A stretch of DNA of 34,698 bases, taken from NCBI GenBank assembly GCA_017616445.1, contig JAFZYE010000064.1, positions 1 to 34,698 of the forward strand. The letters are read 5' to 3'. The position numbers and the translations under genes are program-made. This DNA comes from Bacteroidaceae bacterium. Lineage in GTDB: Bacteria > Bacteroidota > Bacteroidia > Bacteroidales > Bacteroidaceae. Positions 1,960 to 32,903 of this stretch are shown piece after piece; within the stretch, counting starts at the first letter, position 1, and every line of letters begins with the position of its first letter. The notes below the pieces were generated by a model. That model did not search any database, was not told the origin of the DNA, and worked only from the letters and a program-made list of their open reading frames with translations.

Positions 1960-4449
1960 TTATGGTTGTACTTTGTTTTTTATTCCAAATATGTTGGTTA
2001 TACTTTTAGGCAATGAAGATTGCTCGTAGAGTTCGAAATATTCTGTTCCATCGGCTTCTGTAAGGAATGGAAGCAGGAAGGTATCTGTGGCTTTCCAATC
2101 CAGTTTAACAGTTCGTGTGCCTTCTGTCAACAATTGCTGATTCGGATTGTATTGATACGTTCTCGTTCGGGTGGTGAACCCGGATGCCACATCCTCTGTA
2201 TATGAGGACGATCCTGTGAATGGGACATATAAGTCTACTACTTGTTGGAGGCTGAATAGTTTGTATTTTTTAGGGACATATAATGGGAAGAAATTTTCTA
2301 TGATTCCTTCGCGCATCTTTAAGATTCCTATTCGCTGCCAGCAGCCAGTGAGAGGTGAGAGGTAAGAGGTGAGAGGTGAGAGAGTTGAAAGAGCTTCAAG
2401 TATGTCAACCGTTATTCTGACATCTGAGGCTATTCCTTCTTTGGCATCGTAGTGTTCGTTGATAAACTTGTCTCGTGGGAATATTTCTGATTCTGTCCGA
2501 TCGCTGTTGTACCATTTCAGAGTGAAACGTGCAGAATCGCTATCATATACTCGGATACCTCGCCCATTGGTGCCGACTGGCACATTTCCTGTATGACGGA
2601 ACACCGTTGTGCGGTCGTTATCGAGGAACGGTATAGTTAGTGTTCCGTCGGTTGCCCGTTCGGGCTGGGTTGTTAAGGTGATGGAACGAGTACAGTATTT
2701 ATACTGTTCGAAATCGGGGACGGTTTCAGTTGTTCCTTCATCGTAGGTGACTTTTGTCAGATGATACAGTCCTATCGGGTCCTTTTCGGTCAGTTCACCT
2801 AAGTTCTGCTTTTTAAATTCTACTGGACTTTCCTTTATGTTACCCTTTTGCCCTTTTGCATAATATGGCCTCAATACGATGGGCTTTGTATTCACTTTTG
2901 TTTGATACCCCATTCGATAGAACGCAAAATCGCCAACATAATGCTTTCCATATTCATACTCAATCTCAGGGGTGGGAATCGAAACTTCATCTATCTGGGT
3001 TTCAAAGAATGCTCCCTCGCGGATATGCAGCAGTTTGTCTGGGATATTGATTGACTTGATGGATGTATGGGCAAATGCATAATTGTCAACAACTATCAGG
3101 TCGGGAGGAAGTACGATAGAGGTCAATTGCCGGCATCCTGTGAAAGCATATTCGCGTATGCTCAACAGACTCTTCGGCAGTTGAATGTCTGTAAGCGTCT
3201 GACATTGATAGAAGGCATAAGGTCCGATATGGCGGATTCCTTCAGGGATGATGCTCGTCTTGCAACCACGAACCACCATACGGCGGTCGGTATCGATGAT
3301 GGCGTTGCAGTTCTCGCGTGAATCGAGCACACGATTCTGGCTGTCAACCACAATCCGCTCCAGATTGGTGCAGCGGGTCAGGGCCTGCTGTCCGATACGT
3401 TTCATCGTTGCAGGGATATAGACGGCTGTCAAGTGAGGATTGTTGCTCAAGGCTTTGTCGCCAATAGTTGTCACCTTGTATTGCTTTCCTTTGATGGTGA
3501 CTGTAGCAGGGATATGTAATTCTCCTGCGATGTTTGCATCGTTCTTCTCGTTATAGGTAAGTGCTACGGTAGATTCCGTCATTTTGATATAGTCAAGTTT
3601 CACTCCGTCCTCGTTCTTGATGGTGTAGATCCCATTATCGCCAGCAGAGACATCCATAGCAAGACGCAAGCCCGCTATTTGGGTGGGGTAGCGAGATGTC
3701 ACCGTACAGCCCGAAGCATCACCATATTGTACACTCCCACCTCGAACTGCATGACCTCGTGTGATATCGACTTCATCAATACCGATACGGAAATCAGTCG
3801 CTATCGGTTCCCTTCTGGAAGTGTTCCAAATGAACACATCATCGCTGCATCGCTCACCTACATTACCACTCATGTCATATAGTCCTAATTCATTTGGCTG
3901 CTTAGTTGCTACGGCATGATACCTTCTTTCAGCATGTCCCCATCCCCACCAAGCTACATCGTCAGGATAATTGCTGCCTGCAAAAAAGTATCCTTTGCTC
4001 TTGATGCCTCCACGAGCAGCAAATTCCCATTCGGCCTCGGTAGGCAAGCGGAAATGCTGTTTCGTCAGTTGGTTGAGGCGATTGATGAACTCTAAACATG
4101 CCTCATAGTTCAAGTCCAATACTGGTAAGGTGTCGCCGATAAGGGCAGCATCTTTCGCTTTGGGGGTTCGTTCCATCACGGCTTTCCATAGTTTTTGAGT
4201 CACTTCTGTCTGACCGATGAAAAAAGTATTGACCCGTTCTTCGTGCGGCTGTAATTTATTGTTATTTGCCGAAGCACTTTCAAGTATGTACTCTCCCATA
4301 GTAAAGATGCCGCCCTCCACTTTCACCATTTGGAAACTGACTCCACGCACCTTTATAGTCAAGACATCATCAGCCCTCACAACTTGACTAAAGATGAAAG
4401 AAAAAAAGCAAAGGGCAAAACAAAAGATTCTATTATTATAATGTGCCAT
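1960..4449 (-). CDS. secreted SUMF1 (FGE-sulfatase-like) and BspA-type LRR_5 fusion protein
   Basis: Exported protein of about 829 residues. The ATG at 4449 is chosen because it gives a clean signal peptide (residues 1-27); an upstream in-frame TTG at 4485 adds only a hydrophilic stub. Residues about 38-266 form a formylglycine-generating-enzyme-like fold, with GGIFTMG, EVTQKLW, RLPTEAEWEFAARGG (134-148), LYDMSGNV (190-197) and RGGS. The cysteine pair of true FGE is not visible in the RGGS region, where only one Cys follows, so a structural or binding role is more likely than sulfatase maturation. Residues about 320-500 are LRR_5 repeats (IGxxAFxxCxxLTxIxLP). The last 330 residues have no recognised domain. 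It is the last gene of the ECF sigma operon, 54 bases after the previous stop. Confidence 0.85.
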   Translation of the reverse strand: MAHYNNRIFCFALCFFSFIFSQVVRADDVLTIKVRGVSFQMVKVEGGIFTMGEYILESASANNNKLQPHEERVNTFFIGQTEVTQKLWKAVMERTPKAKDAALIGDTLPVLDLNYEACLEFINRLNQLTKQHFRLPTEAEWEFAARGGIKSKGYFFAGSNYPDDVAWWGWGHAERRYHAVATKQPNELGLYDMSGNVGERCSDDVFIWNTSRREPIATDFRIGIDEVDITRGHAVRGGSVQYGDASGCTVTSRYPTQIAGLRLAMDVSAGDNGIYTIKNEDGVKLDYIKMTESTVALTYNEKNDANIAGELHIPATVTIKGKQYKVTTIGDKALSNNPHLTAVYIPATMKRIGQQALTRCTNLERIVVDSQNRVLDSRENCNAIIDTDRRMVVRGCKTSIIPEGIRHIGPYAFYQCQTLTDIQLPKSLLSIREYAFTGCRQLTSIVLPPDLIVVDNYAFAHTSIKSINIPDKLLHIREGAFFETQIDEVSIPTPEIEYEYGKHYVGDFAFYRMGYQTKVNTKPIVLRPYYAKGQKGNIKESPVEFKKQNLGELTEKDPIGLYHLTKVTYDEGTTETVPDFEQYKYCTRSITLTTQPERATDGTLTIPFLDNDRTTVFRHTGNVPVGTNGRGIRVYDSDSARFTLKWYNSDRTESEIFPRDKFINEHYDAKEGIASDVRITVDILEALSTLSPLTSYLSPLTGCWQRIGILKMREGIIENFFPLYVPKKYKLFSLQQVVDLYVPFTGSSSYTEDVASGFTTRTRTYQYNPNQQLLTEGTRTVKLDWKATDTFLLPFLTEADGTEYFELYEQSSLPKSITNIFGIKNKVQP
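2348..2382. repeat. five tandem 7-bp repeats inside the SUMF1-LRR gene
   Basis: GTGAGAG, GTGAGAG, GTAAGAG, GTGAGAG, GTGAGAG. On the coding (minus) strand these encode the low-complexity stretch LSTLSPLTSYLSPLTG. Three 7-bp units equal seven codons, so the peptide also repeats. Similar simple repeats occupy the alaS upstream region. Confidence 0.85.
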
Positions 4450-4503
4450 ACGGAAAAATGAAAGATTGAAGTTATCTATTATCAATTATACATTATAAAT
4501 TAT

Positions 4504-5754
4504 TTAAAAGTCTTCCTCGTAGTATGTAACCACGCCATTGTCATAGTCGCGAATCGTTTCCCAATCTTTGGGCAGATTGTGCAGTCTTCCTCCATTTGTT
4601 TTCAGTAGCAATATATGATAATAACCTTTGCTGTATGCCGTCAATACATCGAAATAATTTGTGTCACTAAGTCCACTATAGTCGTTCCATCCAAGCTGAT
4701 AGACCCGGAAATCATGCTGTCCATAAAAAACTTTTTCAGCACTCTTTCCGAAACGGCATCTGTTCGGGTTTATGGCATGACAATCTTCATGAGGATGTGA
4801 CAGAATGTAATCGATTGTCGCCTTCCAATAGTCTCTTATCACCGTCTCAGCAACTTCCTTTGACTGAATGATGTAGTGCAGACCGTATGTGTCGCTTTCC
4901 GTAATGAAAGGGAAGGAACCCGTGATTGAATTTCCATAGGAATCGGAGGTACTACCAGTCGAAAAGTTGCCTTCCAACTTGTAGTAGTGCACTTGACGCA
5001 TCACAACTCCTGGACGATTGAGCACTTTCTGAATTGCTTCACAATATGTATCGGGGTTGAATGGTGTGACAAACAACTGCACACCTCGTTCATCGGGATT
5101 ATTGACAAAGGCTGAATCCAGATAATAGAAGTAGTTGAGCGATGCATGGGCAATATTATAAGAGGCAACTACGGAACTATCGACCTCAACGATGGTCTTT
5201 CCTGTTTGTTCATCCTTTTTGTAGTTTCTCTCCGGATAATATGGAATATCACGCGTAGCATAGTAATTCATGTTGATGTACTCCCCACCGAAAGCAGCAC
5301 TCGGACCAAATCGGGAATTGGTGGATTTGCGTAGGGAGAACATCTGTTGGGCAGGACGCAGATACATCGCATAATTGAGGGTATCAGCGTTGTTGCTATG
5401 CATTTCCCAATGAGAGGCTTCTATAGATTGCTTTGACAGATGGTCTAAAGTCTGACGAACCCGATTCAGCATTTCCTCCATCTTTTGCTTCTGAAGAGCT
5501 ATCCACTCAGGCTTTGTTGCGGTGGAATGCCCCTCAATATACGAATGCTGAAACGAAAGTCGCCCCTGGCATTCGAGTCCGGTGCGTCCAACTCCAAAAG
5601 TCATGTAATTTGACAGAGAGAGGCCCGTCTGTTCCTGTTTCATCGAGTCTACATATGCCATCAGGGCATCAATCTCTGGACAGAATTGTGCCGCAGCTCC
5701 CAATGTATATGAGGCTATCAGCAGCATGATACATGTTCTTAATCTGTTCATCAT
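4504..5754 (-). CDS. secreted protein of unknown function in the ECF sigma operon
   Basis: Not recognised. A 416-residue protein with an N-terminal signal peptide (MMNRLRTCIMLLIASYTLGA, cleavage expected after AAAQ). There are two adjacent ATG codons (5754 and 5751). The mature part is mixed alpha/beta and rich in aromatic residues, with no transmembrane segment or repeat and no catalytic motif I can name. It lies 77 bases after the anti-sigma-like gene and 54 bases before the SUMF1-LRR gene, all in one direction, so it is probably part of the sigma factor's operon or regulon. The gap before it carries the hairpin repeat described at 5774-5829. Confidence 0.7.
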   Translation of the reverse strand: MMNRLRTCIMLLIASYTLGAAAQFCPEIDALMAYVDSMKQEQTGLSLSNYMTFGVGRTGLECQGRLSFQHSYIEGHSTATKPEWIALQKQKMEEMLNRVRQTLDHLSKQSIEASHWEMHSNNADTLNYAMYLRPAQQMFSLRKSTNSRFGPSAAFGGEYINMNYYATRDIPYYPERNYKKDEQTGKTIVEVDSSVVASYNIAHASLNYFYYLDSAFVNNPDERGVQLFVTPFNPDTYCEAIQKVLNRPGVVMRQVHYYKLEGNFSTGSTSDSYGNSITGSFPFITESDTYGLHYIIQSKEVAETVIRDYWKATIDYILSHPHEDCHAINPNRCRFGKSAEKVFYGQHDFRVYQLGWNDYSGLSDTNYFDVLTAYSKGYYHILLLKTNGGRLHNLPKDWETIRDYDNGVVTYYEEDF

Positions 5755-13565: not shown

Positions 13566-13607
13566 TATATTTACGATTTACTTTTTAACTATTGACATAT
13601 TTGGGTG

Positions 13608-13615
13608 CAAAGTTA
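13608..13615 (-). promoter_or_regulatory. alaS -7 box
   Basis: TAACTTTG on the minus strand, 43 bases upstream of the alaS ATG. The -33 position falls in a simple-repeat tract (TTAGGAG units) and has no clear TTTG. Confidence 0.5.
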
Positions 13616-13618
13616 CGA

Positions 13619-13699
13619 AAAAGTTAGGAGTTAGAAGTTAGGAGTTAGGAGTTTTTTTGATTTTTCACTTTTCACTCTTCACTTTTCACTTTTTTTTTC
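13619..13699. repeat. simple-repeat tract between the divergent alaS and glycosyltransferase genes
   Basis: Four TTAGGAG-like units (13623-13652) are followed by a T run and then five TTTTCAC/TCTTCAC units (13664-13690) and another T run. It separates two divergent promoters and replaces sequence where -33 boxes would be expected. Confidence 0.85.
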
Positions 13700-13707
13700 T
13701 ATCTTTG
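13700..13707 (+). promoter_or_regulatory. -7 box immediately before the glycosyltransferase ATG
   Basis: TATCTTTG ends 4 bases before the ATG at 13712. If used, transcription would start at or within a few bases of the ATG, giving a leaderless mRNA. No clear TTTG at -33. Confidence 0.45.
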
Positions 13708-13711
13708 CAGC

Positions 13712-14620
13712 ATGAAACTATCCATCATCGTTCCTGTTTATCGCGTCGCAGACACACTTCGGCGGTGTGTTGACAGCATCATTTCACAGTCGTTTTCCGA
13801 TTGGGAAATGATATTGGTAGATGACGGTTCGCCCGATAACTGCGGAGCCATCTGCGACGAGTATGCAGAGAAGGACAGTCGCATACGGGTGATTCATCAA
13901 GAAAATGGAGGGTTGAGCGATGCCCGCAATGCAGGACTGAAGATGGCAAAAGGAGAGTTCGTCACGTTTGTCGATAGCGACGATTACATCCGTCAGGACA
14001 CATACGAACAGGTGATGAGATACGCAGCAGACGAGGAGGATGTGGAGATCATAGAGTTCCCAATCGTAGTGCATGCAGGACATGCGAGCCAGCAGGAGTT
14101 ACGATTCGACGACATGATTTTTCCTGATGCCCGTACCTATTGGCTGGAAGGAAAAGCATACGCCCATTCATACGCTTGCAATAAGGTGTTCCACCGCTAT
14201 CTCTTTGACGATGTGGTATTCCCCAAGGGGTATAAGTTTGAGGATGTATGGGCTTTACAACAGATATTACAGCATGATCCGATAGTGATGACCATATCCC
14301 AAGGACTTTATTATTATTGTTGGAACACGGAAGGCATCACAGTACAGGCATCGGGCAAAGATCTGGAACAGCTGCTTGATGCACATCTTTCTGCCGCAAA
14401 CACGTTGCATCTCTCATGGGAAGGCGAAGACGTAGCTTCGTATTACCTGCACGTGCTAAATATTCAGCTGGATGTGTGCAAACGCTTACGAACCCAACCC
14501 AAGCTTCCCTACAGAAGACTACCCTTTAGCGTTGCATCGACCACACATGAGCGCATCAAAGTATTCATCCTTAACACATTCGGCATCAACGTCCTATGCA
14601 AGCTAAAGCAGATCATATAA
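13712..14620 (+). CDS. family 2 glycosyltransferase
   Basis: GT-A fold transferase (302 residues), cytoplasmic or membrane-associated, that would add a sugar from a nucleotide donor to a surface glycan. The N-terminus is the classic GT2 start (KLSIIVPVYRVADTLRRCVD), with ILVDDGSPD, NGGLSDARNAG and the metal-binding VDSDD at 87-91. The fold begins at residue 3, so a later start is not possible. The C-terminal 100 residues are a helical acceptor-specific region. First of three overlapping transferase genes (25-base overlap with the next) between alaS and trpS; no flippase or polymerase gene is nearby, so the product glycan is unknown. Confidence 0.92.
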   Translation: MKLSIIVPVYRVADTLRRCVDSIISQSFSDWEMILVDDGSPDNCGAICDEYAEKDSRIRVIHQENGGLSDARNAGLKMAKGEFVTFVDSDDYIRQDTYEQVMRYAADEEDVEIIEFPIVVHAGHASQQELRFDDMIFPDARTYWLEGKAYAHSYACNKVFHRYLFDDVVFPKGYKFEDVWALQQILQHDPIVMTISQGLYYYCWNTEGITVQASGKDLEQLLDAHLSAANTLHLSWEGEDVASYYLHVLNIQLDVCKRLRTQPKLPYRRLPFSVASTTHERIKVFILNTFGINVLCKLKQII

Positions 14621-15573
14621 ACCCTTTCTCCATCAGTTTTATAATTCCATATTATAATCTGCCTGTGGACATGCTCAAGGAATGCATCGACAGCATTCTG
14701 TCGCTTCCTCTGCAACCCCAGGAACGGGAAATCATCATCGTGGACGACGGTTCCGACTGTAGTGTCGAAGCAGACCTGAATGCATACGCAGACAATATCA
14801 GCTATATCAGGAAAGAGAACGAGGGTGTGAGTGTTGCACGTAACGTAGGATTAGAAGAAGCGGAAGGCAACTATATCCAGTTTGTAGATGCAGACGACAA
14901 ACTGATGAAAGGGCCATACGCCCATTGCATCGAACTCATTCGAAACAACCCAGCAGATATGCTTCTGTTCGACTTTACGACAACTCAATCGTCTGCTGCG
15001 GCCTATACAGACGAAGGTCCCATGAGTGGCACAGCAGTCATGCGCAACCGCAACATTCACGGTTCGACCTGGGGGTACATCTTCCGCAAATCGATTGGTC
15101 AGAATTGCCGATTCACCCCTGGTGTCAGCTATGGGGAAGATGAGGAATTTACGGCACGGTTGCTCATACAAGCGGAATCGGTCATGATGACAGATGCCCA
15201 AGCATATTACTATCGGCAACATGAGCGTTCTGCCACCCAACAAACCAGCAGAAACGACAAACGGCTGTCAGATACCCGAGCGGTCATCTCACGTCTGTAT
15301 CACCTTGCAGAGACACTCCCTGAAGACAAGCACGATGCACTCCAGCGACGGGTGGCTCAACTCACGATGGATTATATCTATAACGTGATACGCCTGACAA
15401 GGTCGGAAGAGCTCTTAGACAGCACACTGGTAGATTTGCGTAGCGAACACCTCTTCCCGCTGCCCGACAAAGCCTACACAACCAAATATACTTGGTTCCG
15501 TCGTATGACCAACAGCGCCTTTGGACGTAAGATGCTGATTATGACGATACCCTTAATGAAAAAAGAACGATGA
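14596..15573 (+). CDS. family 2 glycosyltransferase
   Basis: Second GT-A transferase (325 residues). Motifs: ISFIIPYYNLPVDMLKECID, IIIVDDGSD, NEGVSVARNVGLEEAEG and VDADD at 97-101. The ATG at 14596 lies inside the end of the previous gene; the fold begins around residue 12, so no downstream ATG would keep it whole. It ends with a basic stretch (MKKER) overlapping the next gene's ATG by 4 bases. The tight overlaps indicate a single transcription unit and suggest the three enzymes act on the same glycan in sequence. Confidence 0.9.
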   Translation: MQAKADHINPFSISFIIPYYNLPVDMLKECIDSILSLPLQPQEREIIIVDDGSDCSVEADLNAYADNISYIRKENEGVSVARNVGLEEAEGNYIQFVDADDKLMKGPYAHCIELIRNNPADMLLFDFTTTQSSAAAYTDEGPMSGTAVMRNRNIHGSTWGYIFRKSIGQNCRFTPGVSYGEDEEFTARLLIQAESVMMTDAQAYYYRQHERSATQQTSRNDKRLSDTRAVISRLYHLAETLPEDKHDALQRRVAQLTMDYIYNVIRLTRSEELLDSTLVDLRSEHLFPLPDKAYTTKYTWFRRMTNSAFGRKMLIMTIPLMKKER

Positions 15574-23549: not shown

Positions 23550-23936
23550 CTAAGCCAAAGAATCTAACAGAAAATCTGTTGCTTCTTCCAAAGCATCAAG
23601 ATCGTTTTTAACTGATGAAAAAATAACATCTCCATCTATATCAAAGTAACCATGAGCAATATGATTACGAATACCCATTACATCTTCCCAAGGAATCTCA
23701 GGACGCATAAATAGGAAGTTTCCATCTGTCAGTTGATTGATTTGTTTAAAGCCTTCACCTATTGCCTCTATCAACATACAACTTGCAGCCAATTTCTGCA
23801 TCCCTTCAGGAGAAACATAATAATCTTCTGAAGAAGTGATAGCTTCATTCCACTCCTTCAACTGTCCTATAGCCGTCTTGATTTGCTCAAGAGTTCCTTT
23901 TACACGATTGCGTTTATCTAATGACGTAAATTCCAT
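23550..23936 (-). CDS. hepT: HepT-family HEPN toxin of an MntA/HepT system
   Basis: Predicted RNase toxin (about 128 residues). The motif RX4HXY is complete: Arg90, His95 and Tyr97 in RNHIAHGY. In characterised members the tyrosine is AMPylated by the partner MntA, which inactivates the toxin. The ATG at 23936 is chosen; the frame also opens at a TTG at 23954. Either start lies inside the end of mntA (23-41 base overlap), so the two are translationally coupled. The complete motifs suggest a functional rather than degenerate pair. Confidence 0.88.
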   Translation of the reverse strand: MEFTSLDKRNRVKGTLEQIKTAIGQLKEWNEAITSSEDYYVSPEGMQKLAASCMLIEAIGEGFKQINQLTDGNFLFMRPEIPWEDVMGIRNHIAHGYFDIDGDVIFSSVKNDLDALEEATDFLLDSLA

Positions 23937-24210
23937 CACGTTCGATATTTTCAAGAAGATACGGATTGATATGTTTATGCATCCTCACGACATCAACTGA
24001 GCATTGCAGCAATTGCTCCAAAAAGCGTTTAAGGCGAGCAAGCATGTAGAGACTTGGCTCCATTTCTACACAGACATCCACATCACTATCGTCCCTCTGC
24101 TCACCTCGAGAAACAGAACCAAACAAGCGCAGCGAACGTATACCAAATTGCGTCCGCAGTTCCTCACTATGTGCAGAAATCAACTCTATGTAATCTTTTG
24201 CCTTTCGCAT
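23914..24210 (-). CDS. mntA: MntA-family nucleotidyltransferase antitoxin
   Basis: 98-residue minimal nucleotidyltransferase with the exact signature GSX10DXD: Gly31-Ser32 in FGSVSRGE and Asp43/Asp45 in DSDVDV. Members AMPylate the partner HepT and so neutralise it. Start is the ATG at 24210. The product is standard length and overlaps hepT. A -7 box (24231-24238) lies 20 bases upstream, with a direct repeat of TACACAAAAG that might serve autoregulation. Confidence 0.88.
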   Translation of the reverse strand: MRKAKDYIELISAHSEELRTQFGIRSLRLFGSVSRGEQRDDSDVDVCVEMEPSLYMLARLKRFLEQLLQCSVDVVRMHKHINPYLLENIERDGIYVIR

Positions 24211-24715: not shown

Positions 24716-24747
24716 TTTGGTACTTTCAAATAAATGCCGTATATTTG
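24716..24747 (+). promoter_or_regulatory. promoter of the DUF4384 gene, Bacteroidetes type
   Basis: TTTG (24716-24719), 20 bases, TATATTTG (24740-24747): a perfect match to the consensus. The predicted start of transcription is about 45 bases before the ATG. Confidence 0.85.
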
Positions 24748-24797: not shown

Positions 24798-25700
24798 ATG
24801 ATGCAAAGTAGACATTTGATTATCTTTCTTAGCCTTATCTGTTTCCACATGACAGCAAATGCACAGAAGCAAAAGTCGGTGGAGGCCACCTACACCTACG
24901 TAGCTGCCCAACGTGAGAGTTTAGAGGATGCAAAGCGCAATGCTGTACATTACGCCAAAATCGAGGCGTTGAGAAAAGAGTTTGGCACTCTGGTCAGCGA
25001 CGCTTCGGCCAGCACCATCGTTCAGAAAGGCAATAAAACCACAGAGAAGTTTGTGTCGATGAGTGGAGAAGGTGAGCTCAACGGCGAATGGATTGGCGAC
25101 AGAGAGGCTCCCAAAATAGAAACAACACTCGATGGAGATAAGTTTGTGGTGAAAGCTACCGTGAAAGGTTATGCAACAGAAATCAACAACAACACCATTG
25201 ATTATGTAGCAAAAGTGCTGCGCAATAGACCAAGTCCTGAATACGAGAGTGAGGAATTCGTAGCAGGAAATGACATCTACGTCAGCTTCTCTGCCCCTAT
25301 CGACGGCTACTTAGCCATCTATCTGCTCGACTCAGACAACGCCTACTGCCTGCTGCCCTATCGCGCCAATAAGGACGGTTTCTTCAAAGTGACCCACCAG
25401 ACAGAGTATATTCTGTTCAGTCAAAGCCATCATGCCGTAGGAGAAAACCCACAGGAAATTGACGAGTACACCGTCACATCTGACAAAGAAATGTCCGACT
25501 TCAACCAGATTTACTTCATCTTCTCGCCCAACATGTTCCGCAAACCTGTAGACTTCAACAAACAGGTAGAAGAAGGTATCGTCTATCCACGCATGATGAC
25601 GTGGGGGAACTTCCAGGAATGGATCATCAAGGCTCGCAAACGCGACAAAGAGATGTCCGTAAAAGTGAAGAACATAGAAGTCAAGCCCCAGAACCTCTAA
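24798..25700 (+). CDS. exported DUF4384-domain protein
   Basis: Exported protein of 300 residues (ATG 24798; a second ATG at 24801). Earlier in-frame codons to 24717 are rejected because they overlap the promoter and spoil the signal peptide MMQSRHLIIFLSLICFHMTA (cleavage after NAQ). Residues about 28-130 form an alpha/beta domain of the type found in LPP20/TolB-N-like surface proteins (AQRESLEDAKRNAVHYAKIE). Residues about 155-250 match DUF4384 (YVSFSAPIDGYLAIYLLDSD, then LLPY and IYFIFSP). DUF4384 is often fused to or beside caspase-like C14 domains, and here the convergent neighbour is such a protease. The two genes share a terminator hairpin. Molecular role unknown. Confidence 0.82.
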   Translation: MMQSRHLIIFLSLICFHMTANAQKQKSVEATYTYVAAQRESLEDAKRNAVHYAKIEALRKEFGTLVSDASASTIVQKGNKTTEKFVSMSGEGELNGEWIGDREAPKIETTLDGDKFVVKATVKGYATEINNNTIDYVAKVLRNRPSPEYESEEFVAGNDIYVSFSAPIDGYLAIYLLDSDNAYCLLPYRANKDGFFKVTHQTEYILFSQSHHAVGENPQEIDEYTVTSDKEMSDFNQIYFIFSPNMFRKPVDFNKQVEEGIVYPRMMTWGNFQEWIIKARKRDKEMSVKVKNIEVKPQNL

Positions 25701-25727: not shown

Positions 25728-25762
25728 AATCAGGAGCGATGCACCTTGCACCGCTCCTGATT
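25728..25762. terminator. bidirectional terminator between the DUF4384 and caspase genes
   Basis: An 11-bp perfect stem (AATCAGGAGCG with CGCTCCTGATT) encloses a 13-base loop that itself contains TGCA/TGCA. Short T-rich sequence follows on the plus strand (TTGCTTTTC). It lies between two convergent stops. Confidence 0.75.
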
Positions 25763-25782: not shown

Positions 25783-27156
25783 CTACTTATTCAAAGTCGC
25801 ATTCCTCCAGTCATTGCTCATCGATGCCGAAGGAATCACGGTTGGCGTCTGCAGTTTTCCGCTGTTGATAATGACACTACGCTTCTTCACACTACTGGTA
25901 ACATATTCAGAGAGTTCTCCCAATTGCACCTGTCCCTTATTGTCGCGCAGACACTTCAAGAGATAATAGGTAAAGATACCATGATGCAGGTCTTTATCAC
26001 AGATTGCCGTCTCATCACCTGTGGCAGCTGTGAATACAAGAAGTTTCCCTTCTGGAGCCGTCTCCTTCACCTTGATGGCTACACCACGCGCAGAAGCCAA
26101 CATCTCGCCATCACGCTTTGCGCCACTGAAGCAAGCATCGAGGAACACAGTAATCTGCTCAGCAGGAACAGAACTGAGTGTCTTATACATTTTATCCAGA
26201 CTGTAACCACTCTCGATATCGGATGCGAATCCGTCAACAGGAAGCAGATAGGCAGTCTTATCCTTCTCGTCAGGAACACCATGCCCTGCATAATACACAA
26301 TGGCACGTCCTTCGCCGTTGAATGCTTCAAGCCTATTGGCAAGGGTCGATACTCCATGTCGCATATCGTTCTGGGTGGCATCAGTCACTAGTTCGATATT
26401 GGATTTAGGTATCCCAAGCGTCTTCTCGCAATACTCTGCAAAGATATTGGCATCGTTGTTTGCAAATGGAACAGCAGCCAAACGCTTGTAGTTCTCATTA
26501 CCAATAATCAACGCAAAAGTATTCTCGTTCTTCGAACGTCCCTTTGGAATGTTGATATCAACATCCTCAATCTCTTCTTCCTCCTCTTCTTCAACAATTT
26601 CTTCATCTGCGTTAGTCACCTTCTTCTTGCGTACCACTTTTATGACCTGAGCAACATCAGGCTCTTCCTCAATCACAACCACATTCTTTGTGAAACAAGG
26701 GTTCGAAGTGTCGATTACCGCCAGCAGATAATCAATCTGTCCACCTTTGGAGTGAGTGCGTACACCAGCAATAGCCGTACAGCCGTCAAAAGCGACATCG
26801 TCGATTGTGCAAGGAGTATCAGGGATGACAACTTTCGAGAGATTCGAACAGCCACGAAAAGCATATTTCTCAATCTTTGTCACCGTATTAGGAATCACGA
26901 TGCTCGTGAGATACTCGTTTTTCTTAAAGTAAGCCTCACCTATGCAGGTTGTGGTATAACTCTTCCCTTTGATCTTGATGTTCTCCTGAATCTCCACATC
27001 GCCAATCGCCTTGACCGTAAGGCAAGCCGTCACAGTATTGTCGCTGGTACTTGTGTACTGTATGCCCCCAGTGGTAATACGTACTACAGCATGTCCCACC
27101 AGCGACATGGAGAACAGCACAGCAAGCACGAACATTCGGGGTATTGTCTTACACAT
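25783..27156 (-). CDS. exported LRR_5 and caspase-like (peptidase C14) fusion protein
   Basis: 457-residue protein with a signal peptide (residues 1-23, MFVLAVLFSMSLVGHA core). Residues about 60-135 are BspA-type LRR_5 repeats (YLTSIVIPNTVTKIEKYAF, then CSNLSKVVIP). A basic KVVRKKKV patch is followed by a very acidic linker (about 181-200, EEIVEEEEEEEIEDVD). Residues about 212-440 are a caspase/metacaspase-type C14 domain: FALIIGNENY, catalytic His292 in YYAGHG and Cys342 in LDACFSG, with an acidic S1-like region and a substrate-pocket LLVFTAATGDETA. Both catalytic residues are intact, so proteolytic activity is likely; the linker could be a processing site. It is the last gene of the six-gene operon, 29 bases after a beta-barrel gene. 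Confidence 0.88.
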   Translation of the reverse strand: MCKTIPRMFVLAVLFSMSLVGHAVVRITTGGIQYTSTSDNTVTACLTVKAIGDVEIQENIKIKGKSYTTTCIGEAYFKKNEYLTSIVIPNTVTKIEKYAFRGCSNLSKVVIPDTPCTIDDVAFDGCTAIAGVRTHSKGGQIDYLLAVIDTSNPCFTKNVVVIEEEPDVAQVIKVVRKKKVTNADEEIVEEEEEEEIEDVDINIPKGRSKNENTFALIIGNENYKRLAAVPFANNDANIFAEYCEKTLGIPKSNIELVTDATQNDMRHGVSTLANRLEAFNGEGRAIVYYAGHGVPDEKDKTAYLLPVDGFASDIESGYSLDKMYKTLSSVPAEQITVFLDACFSGAKRDGEMLASARGVAIKVKETAPEGKLLVFTAATGDETAICDKDLHHGIFTYYLLKCLRDNKGQVQLGELSEYVTSSVKKRSVIINSGKLQTPTVIPSASMSNDWRNATLNK

Positions 27157-27185
27157 AATTAATGATTTGTTAGTTTTACATCTTT

Positions 27186-27854
27186 TTAGAAGTTATAGCC
27201 AATCGTCATGTTGGCATTCCGAGTATTGAACTTACCAAAGACTTTAGCTACATCCGAGAATCCATATTCGTAACCTATTCCAGCCGTGAAATGACCAATC
27301 AGCACATTTACACTTCCACTCAAACCAATATCCTGATGCTTCCAGAATCCCTTGTCACCAAAAGTGTCCTGGTCATCCCAGCGATATATGTTGTTTCTGT
27401 CGAAATACTGATAATCAGTCTTACCGCTGATACCATATGCATAGTAAGGACCTATATTGACATGGAACTGAACCCCTGATGGAGCTTCAATTCGCCACGA
27501 TGCCAATAATGGAACCTGTATGTAGTTTGCCGTCATCTTTGAGGCAGTATTCGACGAGGCATTGGATCCTGGCACGAAATTAGGGTCAGGGAAATTACCT
27601 TTGAATCCTTTGCTGACAAAGAAGACCCCAGAAGAAACAGAGAAACTCTTGATGATGTTGTAATCTGCTGTAACACCAAAATGAGCGCCTGTCTTTGTAG
27701 ATGTTGCCTGGTTTTCCGTGCTGCTGGCAAAATTTATACCTGCTCGCACACCAAAAGTGAAAGTCTGATCAGGCTTAGAGGTGTCCCACAAAGACTGTGC
27801 CTGAACACTTGTACCGACCAATATGGTGGTTAATAGCAATAATATCTTTTTCAT
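27186..27854 (-). CDS. outer-membrane beta-barrel protein
   Basis: 222-residue protein with a signal peptide ending VQAQ. The mature part has alternating amphipathic strands (FTFGVRAGINFAS, VSSGVFFVSKGF, YIQVPLLASWRIEA, NIGPYYAYG) and ends in the terminal-aromatic strand NANMTIGYNF, the sorting signature of outer-membrane barrels. It resembles the OMP_b-brl/PorT-like family and is a paralogue of the gene immediately upstream, from which it is separated by 13 bases. It may anchor or export other operon products; no specific function is established. Confidence 0.85.
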   Translation of the reverse strand: MKKILLLLTTILVGTSVQAQSLWDTSKPDQTFTFGVRAGINFASSTENQATSTKTGAHFGVTADYNIIKSFSVSSGVFFVSKGFKGNFPDPNFVPGSNASSNTASKMTANYIQVPLLASWRIEAPSGVQFHVNIGPYYAYGISGKTDYQYFDRNNIYRWDDQDTFGDKGFWKHQDIGLSGSVNVLIGHFTAGIGYEYGFSDVAKVFGKFNTRNANMTIGYNF

Positions 27855-27867
27855 ACATTATACCGTT

Positions 27868-28515
27868 TTAAAAGTTATACCCTAATGAAAGTGCAATCGC
27901 GCCATTCTGGAACTTGTTGTTCGTATCTCTTGACATGTTGATGAGTCCACGCTCATAGTTGAGACCCACATAGATTTTTGAGAATGTGAAGCCAGCACCT
28001 ATAGAAACGCCACAATCAAATTTCTTGTTTCCACGATACTCATCAAAACTGTCAATCTCCGAATTACCCATGTTATAGTTACTTTCAACTTTCTGTTTTC
28101 CAAAAGCGCCAAAGGCGAAGTACGGGCCAAGATTCAGCTGGAACTGAGCTTGGTCGGACAATTCTACTCGATACGATGCCAACAACGGAATCTCGAAATA
28201 GGTAGCATTATCTGTAACATCAATCTTACCACCTGCGTCTGAGTAGTCTTGCTTCCAACCTTTCTGTATCATCAACACACCCGTGTTGATAGAAAAACTG
28301 CGAGCAAGGTTCACGTCGACAGCCACACCGACCTGATATCCCAAACGAAATTCGCGGTCTGCCTGGTCGTCCAATGCATTCTGTTTTCCGACATTGAGTC
28401 CAGCACGAACACCAAGCGTAAACAACTTGTCTGCTCGAGATCCGTCCCAATACTTTTGGGCTGATGCACCTATTGTGCACATCAAAGCCACTAATACTAA
28501 TACAGTTTTTTTCAT
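27868..28515 (-). CDS. outer-membrane beta-barrel protein
   Basis: 215-residue paralogue of the next gene. It has a signal peptide (cleavage after ASAQ), the same opening (KYWDGSRADKLFTLGVRAGL), IPLLASYRVEL, NLGPYFAFGAFG and a C-terminal strand ending GAIALSLGYNF. The signature GPYFA is shared with GPYYA in the paralogue. Together the pair suggests a small duplicated barrel family. It begins 22 bases after the third BACON lipoprotein and is probably translated from the same message. Confidence 0.85.
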   Translation of the reverse strand: MKKTVLVLVALMCTIGASAQKYWDGSRADKLFTLGVRAGLNVGKQNALDDQADREFRLGYQVGVAVDVNLARSFSINTGVLMIQKGWKQDYSDAGGKIDVTDNATYFEIPLLASYRVELSDQAQFQLNLGPYFAFGAFGKQKVESNYNMGNSEIDSFDEYRGNKKFDCGVSIGAGFTFSKIYVGLNYERGLINMSRDTNNKFQNGAIALSLGYNF

Positions 28516-28537
28516 ATTAATTTCGGTTTAGCTTATT

Positions 28538-29935
28538 TTATTTGATAATCGTAACACTTCTCTCAAATTCTTCCATATCGATAGGTTCACATCTCTCGTC
28601 TGGTCCGTCACTCTCAAGCATCATCGAACGGTTAGGAGCAGAATTGTGCTCGCTGGTCAAATAACGACTGATTAAACCTGACATTCTATTTTCGCTTTGT
28701 CCTAAGCCCCAAGTGACAATCAACAATGGATCAGGTGAATGATATGTCCAACTGAGTGCTTTTGAATAAAGCGGGAATTTATTCGTTGTGGCGTCATTAT
28801 GCATCAAACGGTTGATCCGCCATGCCAATGCTGCATCGAAATCGTCAAAATACGTAGAATTTGTGGTTGTCAGTTTTACATATGCTTTGCAGTTACTTCC
28901 AGGGCGCACTGTGTAGTTCCATGAGTCTCCTTTTTTCACCACATTACTGATAGGTGCCAAAGCCTGATTGCTTTCCGAAGGAGTAATACAATATGTAGAA
29001 TTGTAATGTTTGACCGTTCCGTTTGCAGAGCCAGCCGAGTACAAATAATAGCATGTATTTGCGTCTAGATTTCTCCAACTATTCAGAGTCGTCGGCTTAG
29101 CCTGTTTCCACTTCTGTATAGCCTCTACTGTTATCTCGCTGGCAGGGATTACTTCTTTTGTAAGTTTATAATAGATATCCGTCACTTCGATTCCAACTTT
29201 CCAGTCGCAAGCCATGCCATGTGCTAAAGCAACACTGACATTGGGGGTCGCACTATGTTTACCTAATTGACATACTTGGAATTTCTCCCCCATATTTTCA
29301 TTATATGACGGTTTAATGTACAACTCATCAAATACATCGTCAATTTGATCCAAGGCTTTAGCTGTCCTCAGTTTGACAGTTACAGTAAGGCTGTTTTCTA
29401 CATCACCCTTCACTTTAGCTGTTGTTGGCGACAATGTAACCCATTTACCGTCATAGTAGGCCTCCAACCATTCAGGTCCATACAGCACCCAAGAAGTATT
29501 GGTCATTACCATCAGCGAATCTTCATCATGAGCCTTACCGCCGAATGCAATATATATATTTTTATTGGTGACTGATAGCGTCGTTCCCGAAAGCAATTCT
29601 CCTGCCTGTTTAATCAAAATATTACGAGTCGCACCATTGTCCGCTCTGACCATAATATGGTTTTCTGTAGCTTTAACAGAGGTGGTAGCACCCATCGCTA
29701 TTTCTATCTCGCAATCTCCCTTTCCTTGAGTCTGCGACAGCCAGATAGCTTCATTATCACAAACCACACTCCAACTGGTTGTACAGGAAATCTGGAATGT
29801 TGCCGAACCACCCTCCGCAGGAAAGTTTATCACTTCTGCTGATACGGACAAGGAGTCATTATCAGACTTACTTTCGCTACATGCTGCCACCACTGCCACA
29901 ATGCATAGCAACAATATTGTTTTCAAGTTCTTCAT
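28538..29935 (-). CDS. BACON-domain lipoprotein, paralogue C
   Basis: Surface or outer-membrane lipoprotein of about 465 residues. The ATG at 29935 gives a clean lipoprotein signal (lipobox VVAAC, Cys19); a GTG at 29944 would overlap the previous gene by 4 bases. A BACON domain covers about residues 28-115 (INFPAEGGSATFQISCTTSW). A second beta-sandwich (about 120-220) has FGGKAHDEDSLMVMTNTSW and YGPEWLEAYYDGKWVTLSPT. The remaining half is shared with the two upstream paralogues (CDWKVGIEV, CYYLYSAGS, VTWGLGQSENRMSGLISRY). BACON modules usually mediate adhesion or carbohydrate binding; no enzyme domain is visible. Confidence 0.85.
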   Translation of the reverse strand: MKNLKTILLLCIVAVVAACSESKSDNDSLSVSAEVINFPAEGGSATFQISCTTSWSVVCDNEAIWLSQTQGKGDCEIEIAMGATTSVKATENHIMVRADNGATRNILIKQAGELLSGTTLSVTNKNIYIAFGGKAHDEDSLMVMTNTSWVLYGPEWLEAYYDGKWVTLSPTTAKVKGDVENSLTVTVKLRTAKALDQIDDVFDELYIKPSYNENMGEKFQVCQLGKHSATPNVSVALAHGMACDWKVGIEVTDIYYKLTKEVIPASEITVEAIQKWKQAKPTTLNSWRNLDANTCYYLYSAGSANGTVKHYNSTYCITPSESNQALAPISNVVKKGDSWNYTVRPGSNCKAYVKLTTTNSTYFDDFDAALAWRINRLMHNDATTNKFPLYSKALSWTYHSPDPLLIVTWGLGQSENRMSGLISRYLTSEHNSAPNRSMMLESDGPDERCEPIDMEEFERSVTIIK

Positions 29936-29940
29936 AAGCG

Positions 29941-31332
29941 TCACTTAATTAGTTGAACATCAATTATAGCATTCTTTAATTCATCTTTAGATACTTTCTT
30001 CAAGATTGGAGCAGATTGGGCACCTTTTCGTGCAGGCACCCTATTGTAATAGTTGGTTTTGTAGCGTCCCAATAGTCCAGAAAGGACGTTGGAGCCTTTT
30101 GCGATACCCCAGGTGATAATCTGTGCATCCTTATTATCCGTTCTCACCACAAAGTGTCCACTCTCCTGACATCTGGGAAGATCTTGATTGTTCGAATACA
30201 TTAGAAATGCGAGTGTGGCATCTGTCGCATCAAGAAGATTGGTTATGGTGAGTTGAAAATAACCAGCACTATATTCATTCATCTCAGTATCCCATTCCAA
30301 ACGATTACCATCGAATTCTACATTCTTAATAGCCACATAGGCTTGATTAGCTTCTGATTGCGTTTTTATAATTCGATGATTCAGATGGTACTTTCCGTCC
30401 TTATCAATACCAGCAGTGTATATATAATAGTCCTTTCCTGCTTCCAGTCCCCCCACACTACAGATGTCATCAAGGCTCCAAATTCCCCATTCGTTGATAA
30501 AGTCATCTGTCAATTCGTCCTCTGTAAACGCTTCGTTTGCCATCTGTGCTGCGAACCGTTCAACAGCAACACCCACCTTCCAATAAGCGCAGGCAATGCT
30601 GTGGCACAAATTAAAGACTCTATCAGGCACCACTCCATATCTTCCTAATTGAACTGCCTCAATTTCAAAACTTTCATTACCTTCATAAATAGGAGTGATA
30701 GAGATTGTGCCAACCAAATTATCGTCCGACTCGTTTCTGCCATGCGTACGAAATTGAACAGTATGAGCCTCATCTAACTTTACATCATTACCACTGTTGA
30801 AAACAGCTTTAGTAGGTGATAGGGAAACCCATCTGGTACCATTATAAACCTCTATCCAATCTGGTCCTTTTATCTGCCAAGGGATATTACTTAGTATGAC
30901 TAGTGAATCAGCATGATGAGCCTCTCCGCCAAATGTAACTTCATTAACATGATTGGTGACCTTCATAACGAAACCTTCAAGATACCTTGACTTCTGCGTA
31001 ACAACAACATTCTTGATAACAGCTCCATTGGAAGTGTTGATTGTCAAACGACAAGAATTTTCTTTTGTATCCCATGTTTCTGGAAGCGAAACCTTCACAT
31101 CGGCATCGCCAGATCCACTCATGGGCGAAACAGAAAGATCTAGGTTGTCAGTCCTGATCGACCAACTGCTATTGCTGGAAATGCGCAACGTCTCTGTTCC
31201 TCCCTCAGCAGGAATTATAATGGATATCTTATCCACGTCCAAATAAGTCTGCTCCGAAGAAGAAGACTCACTACAGGCAACGAGCAAAGCCATCAATGCC
31301 AATAAGCTGAAATATTTTACGTGCTTCATCAT
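29941..31332 (-). CDS. BACON-domain lipoprotein, paralogue B
   Basis: 463 residues, lipobox LLVAC with Cys20 (two ATG codons, 31332 and 31329). The BACON domain is at about 30-115 (IIIPAEGGTETLRISSNSSW), then a second sandwich with VTFGGEAHHADSLVILSNIP and KGPDWIEVYNGTRWVSLSPT. The shared C-terminal half has YWKVGVAV, YYIYTAGIDKDG and ITWGIAKGSNVLSGLLGRYK. It starts 14 bases after paralogue A and ends 5 bases before paralogue C. Divergence among the three copies is high except at structural motifs, which suggests old duplications and possibly different ligands. Confidence 0.85.
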   Translation of the reverse strand: MMKHVKYFSLLALMALLVACSESSSSEQTYLDVDKISIIIPAEGGTETLRISSNSSWSIRTDNLDLSVSPMSGSGDADVKVSLPETWDTKENSCRLTINTSNGAVIKNVVVTQKSRYLEGFVMKVTNHVNEVTFGGEAHHADSLVILSNIPWQIKGPDWIEVYNGTRWVSLSPTKAVFNSGNDVKLDEAHTVQFRTHGRNESDDNLVGTISITPIYEGNESFEIEAVQLGRYGVVPDRVFNLCHSIACAYWKVGVAVERFAAQMANEAFTEDELTDDFINEWGIWSLDDICSVGGLEAGKDYYIYTAGIDKDGKYHLNHRIIKTQSEANQAYVAIKNVEFDGNRLEWDTEMNEYSAGYFQLTITNLLDATDATLAFLMYSNNQDLPRCQESGHFVVRTDNKDAQIITWGIAKGSNVLSGLLGRYKTNYYNRVPARKGAQSAPILKKVSKDELKNAIIDVQLIK

Positions 31333-31346
31333 AATATTCAGGTTGC

Positions 31347-32747
31347 TTACTTGATTCGAATGATTGACTTTCTAAGATCATCACGATTAATGGTTATACT
31401 ACCCAAACTCGTTTTTACGTTAGCAGCACGTCGCGGAGCCTCAATATAACGTTCATCTGTTGTGCTGTTATAACGATCAATCACTGAAGCATATCGATTA
31501 CTGCCCTTTCCTCCTGCCCAAGTTACCACTTGAATGTGCTGAGGTGAATCCATGATCCAATTGAAACTCTTATCCGTCGTATAAAGTGGGAATTCACTCA
31601 ACATCGATTCGTCTTGCGTATATAGTCCCAAGAACCAAGCCAACACTATATCCGGATAATCAAAAAGTTCGGAAAATGACCACATGCGATAGCCGCTACA
31701 GTATTTGTTCATCTTCACCTGCCATGTCCATTCATTCTGATCGAAATCTAAGTTGACATTCTGAATCTCAGCTAATGGTTGATTCATCGAACTACCAGTC
31801 TGAACAGGTACCATACTTGTAAAATCAGAACCCATCCCATAGCAGTAAAGATAATAGGTAGTATTCTCCTCAAGCGAATCCCAATAGGCAATTCCGTCAG
31901 GATCAGCTTCCCCAAAATCTCCTGGGTCATTTGCATCCAACTCTTCATCAGAAAGGTATGCCAATATACTCTTCACATCAATACCGTATTCCCAATCAGT
32001 AGCGATGCCATCCGATAGGGCAGCAATGTAATTCGGGACAGCCATGTGTCTGCCCAATTGCAATGCCGTTAACGTCACCTGGACATCCGTTCCGCTGTAT
32101 GCGGGCTTCAGCACCAAATCGGCCATTTTATAGTCTTCGCCCGTGTTGGAAGCCTTCGTTCTAAGACGTTGAATCATCGTGCCCTCTGCATCCTTTTCTG
32201 TCGTACGGTTACCCTTAATTACGGCATTCGTCTGTGAAAGAGGCACCCATCGATTACCATCCCAGGCTTCAATCCATTCTGGGCCATAAAGCAACCAAGG
32301 GACATTACTCATAATGCGAAGCGAATCAAGATCCTGACGATTTCCACCAAACGAAATCACTCCTGCATAATTGTTGACCTTCAACGTCACATCACCCGAA
32401 ATAAACCGACCTGCCTGCTTCACCCTCACGTTCGTTGCTACACCACCTTCAGGTTTTACTGCTATCAAATACTGCAATTCCTCAATAGACGAACTTGCAG
32501 GCAACGAAACTGTAATGGTTTTGTTGTAACTTCCGCTTTTTGGAGAAACCAGCATATCGGGATTATCCCAAGTGATAGTCCAATTCGTGTTACTCTTTAT
32601 TTCAAAAGATGTCATACCTCCTTCGCTAGGAAATTCCAATGTAGTTGGTGTCACCTCCAGTTCTGGAGCTTTCACAGAATCTTCGCTACACCCTATTGCC
32701 AGCAAAAGAAGAATTGGGAGAATTGACAAACGGTAGTATTTCTTCAT
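31347..32747 (-). CDS. BACON-domain lipoprotein, paralogue A
   Basis: 466 residues, signal peptide with lipobox LAIGC (Cys20). BACON domain at about 30-113, with LEFPSEGGMTSFEIKSNTNW and LVSPKSGSYNKTITVSL. The second sandwich (about 120-235) has ISFGGNRQDLDSLRIMSNVP and YGPEWIEAWDGNRWVPLSQT. The C-terminal half has DWEYGIDV, TYYLYCYGMGSDF and VVTWAGGKGSNRYASVIDRY, aligned with the other two paralogues. First gene of the six-gene operon and directly behind the strong promoter at 32802-32833. Confidence 0.86.
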   Translation of the reverse strand: MKKYYRLSILPILLLLAIGCSEDSVKAPELEVTPTTLEFPSEGGMTSFEIKSNTNWTITWDNPDMLVSPKSGSYNKTITVSLPASSSIEELQYLIAVKPEGGVATNVRVKQAGRFISGDVTLKVNNYAGVISFGGNRQDLDSLRIMSNVPWLLYGPEWIEAWDGNRWVPLSQTNAVIKGNRTTEKDAEGTMIQRLRTKASNTGEDYKMADLVLKPAYSGTDVQVTLTALQLGRHMAVPNYIAALSDGIATDWEYGIDVKSILAYLSDEELDANDPGDFGEADPDGIAYWDSLEENTTYYLYCYGMGSDFTSMVPVQTGSSMNQPLAEIQNVNLDFDQNEWTWQVKMNKYCSGYRMWSFSELFDYPDIVLAWFLGLYTQDESMLSEFPLYTTDKSFNWIMDSPQHIQVVTWAGGKGSNRYASVIDRYNSTTDERYIEAPRRAANVKTSLGSITINRDDLRKSIIRIK

Positions 32748-32762
32748 GATTATCAGGTTTTA

Positions 32763-32786
32763 ATCGTTAGTAATTATCGTTAGTAA
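32763..32786. promoter_or_regulatory. direct 11-bp repeats in the operon leader
   Basis: ATCGTTAGTAA at 32763-32773 and again at 32776-32786 (plus strand), 13 bases apart start to start. They lie between the promoter and the ATG of the first BACON lipoprotein, so they could be an operator or leader RNA element. Confidence 0.6.
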
Positions 32787-32801
32787 CATTAGTTTCCGCG
32801 G

Positions 32802-32833
32802 CAAATATAATGATTTTTTTCTCTTCTTCCAAA
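32802..32833 (-). promoter_or_regulatory. promoter of the BACON-barrel-caspase operon
   Basis: On the minus strand TTTG (32833-32830), 20 bases, TATATTTG (32809-32802). Perfect consensus, about 55 bases before the ATG at 32747. Confidence 0.88.
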
Positions 32834-32872: not shown

Positions 32873-32903
32873 AAAAAAGCCTCGAAGATATCACCTCGAG
32901 GCT
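32873..32903 (-). terminator. terminator of the TraB-like gene
   Basis: On the minus strand AGCCTCGA, 10-base loop, TCGAGGCT (32903-32878), followed by TTTTTT. It lies 30 bases after the stop at 32934 and separates this gene from the downstream operon promoter. Confidence 0.88.

Follow-up and report, generated by a model that had tools for sequence, protein, structure and literature searches.

An operon for BACON-type lipoproteins, outer-membrane barrels, and an exported caspase-fold protease in a rumen Bacteroidaceae bacterium, with lipoprotein relatives beside C10 and M6 peptidases

We describe a six-gene block from a rumen bacterium of the Bacteroidaceae (GenBank assembly GCA_017616445.1, contig JAFZYE010000064.1; the whole 34,698-nucleotide stretch that was analyzed is called the window) encoding three paralogous lipoproteins, two outer-membrane barrels, and an exported protease that joins a leucine-rich repeat (LRR) domain, LRR_5, to a caspase-fold C14 domain. 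Relatives of the lipoproteins are found next to exported peptidases from the unrelated classes C14, C10, and M6. The reading that we rank first, with a probability of roughly 0.4, is that the lipoproteins would be dedicated peptidase partners, holding or restraining their own peptidase at the outer membrane; roles as substrates or as target receptors are both ranked below it, as unlikely. The parts are of known kinds, and the combination and the three-class lipoprotein link appear new, no description of either having been found in the open-license literature searched.

The genes lie on the minus strand (25783-32747) with intergenic gaps of 5 to 29 bases, downstream of one Bacteroidetes-type promoter, as an earlier note on this DNA had read them. 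Lipoprotein A (31347..32747; 466 amino acids [aa]) is followed by its paralogues B (29941..31332; 463 aa) and C (28538..29935; 465 aa from ATG, with an alternative GTG start possible at 29944), then by barrel 1 (27868..28515; 215 aa), barrel 2 (27186..27854; 222 aa), and the protease (25783..27156; 457 aa), all on the minus strand. Lipoprotein A has a lipobox (Cys20), a BACON domain, a second BACON-like domain, two fn3-like domains, and a variable tail containing Arg440. Pfam scores for BACON/BACON_2 fell below the 25-bit cut-off (A, 21.6; B, 17.1; C, 20.1 bits), and a solved BACON was matched by fold and profile. The barrels match OMP_b-brl_2 (7.8e-24 and 3.4e-22) and are 94% and 95% identical to their counterparts in a second genome, G173 (genomes and loci carry our handles, G and L). 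Signal sequences agree with the envelope location that the earlier note had claimed for the products.

To find relatives, a profile was made from the C-terminal half of the lipoproteins (alignment A7; the M6 loci L041-L043, chosen by sequence, were included, and L139 and the C10 loci L136, L137, and L138 were outside the profile). It matched 12 of 201 genomes of the family and 3 of 247 of the order (own genome in both); several genome searches scored the first 8 to 12 candidates per genome, and presence counts are lower bounds. The profile searches and a scan of genome contigs with one peptide pattern (four loci, two of them the genus loci again) gave 16 loci, all of which are counted here, and peptidase genes were sought with eight query proteins covering the three classes only. 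Twelve of the 16 had such a gene in the stretch fetched: C14 in five, M6 in four (L041, L042, L043, and L139), and C10 in three (L136, L137, and L138). In a control set of 24 BACON-only loci (three further places, G001:C11, G054:C6, and G135:C1:3196164, were left out), a C10 or M6 gene was present anywhere in the stretch fetched in four (L142, L146, L147, and L150), always within two genes. The difference, 12/16 versus 4/24, gave a Fisher value of 3e-4, and 0.015 with the C14 loci removed (7/11 versus 4/24). BACON alone was rejected as a marker of a peptidase link on the control count.

The seven M6 and C10 loci each have a lipoprotein gene directly upstream on the same strand (gap, 14 to 69 bases); C10 and M6 rows average six per partner genome, which would put chance direct adjacency at about 0.5% per locus (2,000 to 2,500 genes assumed). 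Where the peptidase is of the C14 class, the closest lipoprotein gene sits three to five listed open reading frames upstream in the same operon (in the window, the two barrel genes lie between), and all 12 peptidase loci have one or more lipoprotein genes upstream in the same orientation. Judged by eye and post hoc, family members at the 12 peptidase loci are lipoproteins and those at the other four seemingly are not, a split that is imperfect (a Cys is present in the leader of L141:7772-8992, and the lipobox of L138 is doubtful because its start is unsure). Four C10-linked relatives are lipoproteins of 404 to 631 aa, three with BACON-type matches, of which one was above the cut-off. In a tree of the C-terminal domain, the 13 C14 partners grouped together (93/93, below the program's starred level), and the C10 and M6 partners were not separated. 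At one M6 locus (L043:12008-17742, in G186), three lipoprotein-like genes lie 3' of the peptidase gene, and one of these (13572-15197) fuses Mfa_like_1 to the C-terminal domain of the window lipoproteins.

Strong relatives of lipoprotein A occur in 3 of 17 genomes of the genus, own genome included. The order lipoprotein (one to four copies), barrel 1, barrel 2, LRR/C14 is kept in all five C14 loci (the window and four others found), so the homologues are not scattered away from their neighbors; scattering was what the earlier note had said would tell against it. There are three lipoprotein genes in the window, four in G173 (RUG13039), two in G145 (RUG14251), one in RUG12758 (L054), and three in Prevotella SRR8387719_bin.49 (L055), where a gap of about 700 bases precedes barrel 1 and a DUF4384-like gene lies between barrel 2 and the protease. 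Nine genes compared between the window and G173 are under purifying selection, with ratios of nonsynonymous to synonymous substitution rates (dN/dS) of 0.02 for the barrels, 0.035 for the protease, 0.048 for a DUF4384-like neighbor, and 0.07 to 0.18 for the lipoproteins (dS near saturation). An ordinary neighbor effect, in which exported proteins of many kinds simply cluster in Bacteroidales and no peptidase is specifically tied to the lipoproteins, would fit the common occurrence of the barrel 1 family (44 of 201 family genomes at 1e-15) and the four BACON-only loci within two genes of C10 or M6, BACON proteins near peptidases being not rare on that count. We consider it very improbable given the excess over that control, the upstream same-strand lipoprotein gene at every peptidase locus, and the persistence of the C14 block at lipoprotein identities of 20 to 82%.

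One transcription unit encoding an envelope peptidase module is the best explanation of the layout of the six genes. The promoter (TTTG-N20-TATATTTG; 32802..32833, minus strand) lies 54 bases 5' of gene A and was called, like that of the DUF4384-like gene, from the Bacteroidetes consensus. Such a pair is expected 0.64 times per 9.3 kb, and the one found is near chance, so the promoter was discarded as stand-alone evidence and only its position and conservation count: in G173 (L039), a similar element lies 59 bases 5' of the lipoprotein gene that comes first, and L054 has another at the corresponding place; L040 and the short stretch upstream in L055 gave none. The earlier note had also named, as a finding that would tell against it, an internal promoter and terminator splitting the lipoprotein genes from the caspase gene. 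No second TTTG/TATATTTG-type pair was found on the minus strand of the operon, and a generic scan reported no minus-strand terminator-like site inside it; generic scanning did report nine sigma-70-like minus-strand sites within the operon, a number near chance. The nearest upstream terminator-like site (32878-32903) is 3' of the preceding TraB-like gene. A 35-base hairpin (25728..25762, by RNA fold) lies between the stop codons of the convergent protease and DUF4384-like genes; it has no clear T-run and was not reported by the terminator scanner. In G173 (L039:1-5462), the TraB-like gene upstream of the operon is present in two copies: the contig start truncates one (2-583), and the other (4827-5462) is a shorter frame of 211 aa.

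Under the restraint reading, the lipoproteins would be translated first and anchored in the outer membrane, would bind the peptidase, which is made last, and would hold it in position or inactive until the arrival of a client or signal; the barrels may help seat the lipoprotein-peptidase complex. In Bacteroidales, published lipoprotein genes that precede or adjoin protease genes encode reported or proposed inhibitors. Potempins of Tannerella forsythia are described in passages of PMC7296668 as small lipoproteins inhibiting a co-expressed KLIKK protease, the inhibition being cited there as data to be published. As in potempin-KLIKK operons, a Bacteroidales lipoprotein gene directly precedes the protease gene at our seven C10 and M6 loci, with two barrel genes intervening in the window; unlike potempins, the lipoproteins here are about 460 aa long with BACON and fn3-like domains, occur in one to four copies, are encoded with barrels and a C14 protease, and would at most be putative inhibitors. 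For Bfi-Bfp of Bacteroides fragilis, passages of PMC2873492 propose staphostatin-like inhibitors from sequence and show co-transcription with a C10 protease. In both cases, the gene for an exported or lipoprotein partner stands together with that for an exported cysteine protease (co-transcribed in Bfi-Bfp), whereas Bfi proteins are staphostatin-like and of 116 to 138 aa, unlike the far longer C10-linked lipoproteins found here.

Several observations weigh against restraint. No C10, M6, or C14 gene was found in L140, L141, L163, or L164 (L140 stops at the contig end, and the gene downstream of its family member lies beyond it); L163 and L164 were the only two new loci when the C-terminal family was extended to the order. 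In G186, a second family copy lies 3' of the M6 gene. The three C10 enzymes already have Spi (I69) propeptides. Numbers of lipoprotein copies and C14 genes do not match (3 and at least 3 in G000, 4 and at least 1 in G173, and 2 and at least 4 in G145), and the presence of one lipoprotein family beside C14, C10, and M6 enzymes would be odd for active-site inhibitors. Arg440, the tail residue of lipoprotein A, is not general: it is Tyr in L054, and in the L055 copies it is Lys or Trp, or the protein ends before the site.

That residue bears on an alternative in which the lipoproteins are substrates, cut after a basic residue by the caspase-fold protease and thereby released or assembled at the surface, as with Arg-gingipains and lipoprotein fimbrillins. 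Arg-gingipain is itself a clan CD enzyme with a caspase fold. In Porphyromonas gingivalis, the surface lipoprotein Mfa1 starts polymerizing upon processing by RgpA/B (passages of PMC5954841), so that an envelope protease is again associated with surface lipoproteins, there acting on them; unlike that system, A to C have no fimbrillin domain, no type IX secretion system (T9SS) tail was found on the protease, and barrels are part of the operon. Among six diverged lipoproteins of the genus, 46 columns are invariant, and the sole Arg or Lys among these are Arg425 and Arg440. Arg440, which was chosen after inspection of the alignment, is thus constant in six genus lineages inside a tail that is otherwise weakly conserved by column (mean share, 35% versus 52% for the whole protein) and whose residues 432-443 are among the least confident of the structure model. 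It would fit restraint, as a bait for an Arg/Lys-cutting protease, as well as the substrate role, as a cut site. The substrate role would also suit the G186 fusion of the same C-terminal domain to a fimbrillin-like domain near the M6 gene (L043:13572-15197) and a fimbrillin-like lipoprotein at a sister C14 locus (L088:13477-15246). We nonetheless hold it to be unlikely: Tyr replaces Arg440 in L054, a cut at Arg440 would shed the last 26 residues only, and A to C gave no match to fimbrillin families up to E 1. The M6 and C10 partners, moreover, are not known to be Arg specific.

A capture model, which follows the earlier note's idea that the lipoproteins and the LRR recognize a target for the protease, is doubtful to a similar degree; in it, these parts would bind a protein from outside, be it of food, host, or rival, at the cell surface, and the protease would degrade it. 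Acidic residues immediately after the lipobox Cys act as a surface-export signal, and their presence in most of 22 lipoproteins fits such a role. The lipoproteins have also diverged 4 to 9 times faster than the barrels (dN, 0.11 to 0.21 versus 0.02, window versus G173), and other C14 loci have weakly fn3-like or fimbrillin-like lipoproteins in their place. A dN/dS of 0.07 to 0.18 (dS of 1.1 to 1.5, near saturation) nevertheless signifies purifying selection, and diversifying selection on the lipoproteins was rejected on these values. A T9SS sorting domain was above the cut-off on one M6 partner (L043) and just below it on another (L042), which favors capture; against it, NCBIfam gave no T9SS tail on the three C10 partners or on two of the four M6 partners, and no Por_Secre_tail/T9SS sorting domain was matched on the protease of the window, on that of L040 (Pfam), or on those of L054 and L055 (NCBIfam). 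The C14 proteases scanned may therefore be retained in the periplasm. The LRR part of the window protease, moreover, is a single short block (residues 72-135). Taking together the relatives directly upstream of C10 and M6 genes and the inhibitor and fimbrillin precedents, a role towards the protease itself seems no less likely than recognition of a target.

The claim of an exported LRR_5-C14 protease held up, with a caspase fold and an intact catalytic-type pair, His292 (YAGHG) and Cys342 (DACFSG), both invariant in the five module proteases. Pfam PF00656 (Peptidase_C14) scored 83.8 bits (cut-off, 21.4), and the structure model, of low overall confidence (58.8), gave MALT1 as the top Foldseek match (E 5e-10), with metacaspases and caspase-9 lower. 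The protease was below the cut-off of NCBIfam NF047832 (EACC1-associated caspase; 84 versus 140 bits), and a search of solved structures with its profile returned only LRR chains at 1e-3. A known anti-phage system was considered and rejected: PADLOC matched the protease to nothing but a generic caspase model (44 bits), did not match A to C or the barrels, and matched the DUF4384-like protein marginally to BrxC (14 bits). Prokaryotic metacaspases and orthocaspases combine a caspase-type domain with a His-Cys pair, and exported forms are predicted (passages of PMC3501461, PMC6426788, and PMC7475262). Unlike those described, the present enzyme is an LRR_5-C14 fusion encoded with a lipoprotein array and a barrel pair, and its DUF4384-like protein is separate and exported; the orthocaspase passages of these three papers contain no description of the LRR_5-C14, lipoprotein, and barrel set.

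The DUF4384-like gene (24801..25700, plus strand; 299 aa, exported) is convergent with the operon and has a promoter of its own (TTTG-N20-TATATTTG; 24716..24747, plus strand) with the same 20-base spacing. Its product scored 16.1 bits against Pfam PF14326 (cut-off, 27; two relatives, 26 and 24.1), hence the name DUF4384-like. According to passages of PMC7475262 and PMC6426788, DUF4384 serves as an accessory domain in the orthocaspases of cyanobacteria and in one alphaproteobacterial clade. Among the 201 family genomes, C14 was matched in 31 (E 1e-30 or better; a lower bound, with 8 candidates per genome scored) and the DUF4384-like protein in 28 (E 1e-8), all 28 of which also have C14 (Fisher, 3e-31, ignoring relatedness); for 28 of 33 DUF4384-like places, a C14 place lies no more than 5 kb away. 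Across the order, C14 (present in 56/247) was matched in 25 of 26 DUF4384-like genomes, and 18 of 28 places are within 5 kb. The DUF4384-like protein is a genuine standing partner of exported C14 proteases, as the earlier note had supposed of DUF4384 and caspases. Of 38 C14 loci examined, 24 have a DUF4384-like gene no more than five genes away, and 17 have a gene for an exported protein of 225 aa with a below-cut-off LPP20 match. The gene is convergent in the window and in G173, lies on a separate 3.3-kb contig in G145 (L162), and was not found in the 21 kb of L054.

This partnership would be central to a periplasmic protease-signaling module serving in envelope stress or programmed death, where the core partner of the protease would be DUF4384 and the lipoproteins and barrels would act as sensors. 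The co-occurrence in both genome sets speaks for it, as do the CHASE2 proteins adjoining some other exported C14 loci. We regard it as quite improbable, since the operon has no signaling domain and DUF4384 is on another contig in G145, missing from the L054 stretch, and not within five genes at 14 of the 38 C14 loci.

Other C14 genes were also seen, two of them in the own genome. One of these two (L045:4232-13219) encodes an exported TPR-C14 protein of 839 aa; a gene for an exported protein of 210 aa precedes it, and its run also includes genes for a CHASE2 protein and for a barrel with weak similarity to OmpA. A similar run occurs in G145 (L113). The other, a Sel1-C14 gene (L044:8571-12910), follows three genes, one for a CarboxypepD_reg protein, another whose product looks similar to that one by eye, and one for a lipoprotein; the lipoprotein has weak fn3-type matches, and its C terminus aligns with a weak Lcl_C domain. 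G145 has a similar locus (L099). At L101:5733-10277, genes resembling, by eye, those for a PP2C phosphatase and a Ser/Thr kinase come before an exported C14 gene, which also has a barrel neighbor. Elsewhere in the window, a second LRR-type protein is encoded at 1960-4485 (minus strand; 841-aa frame), one of many proteins of this genome with matches to the LRR part of the protease (63 rows altogether), and an overlapping pair at 23550-24210 (minus strand) encodes a 98-aa nucleotidyltransferase-like protein (PADLOC PDC-S09, 2.8e-24) and a 134-aa protein with RNHIAH, which by eye we take to be an MNT-HEPN toxin-antitoxin pair.

More broadly, BACON/fn3 lipoproteins may be general outer-membrane partners of exported Bacteroidales peptidases, evolutionarily coupled to enzymes of the three unrelated classes, with a C14 branch in which two barrels and a DUF4384-like protein would join in controlling an exported caspase; we put this a little short of an even chance. 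For exported bacterial caspase homologues, a compact, conserved module with named partners turns function into a testable question, namely, whether the lipoproteins bind, restrain, or are cut by the protease. If the link to C14, C10, and M6 enzymes is true, many of the peptidases that Bacteroidales of the gut and rumen export would be marked, and perhaps controlled, by a single family of lipoproteins.

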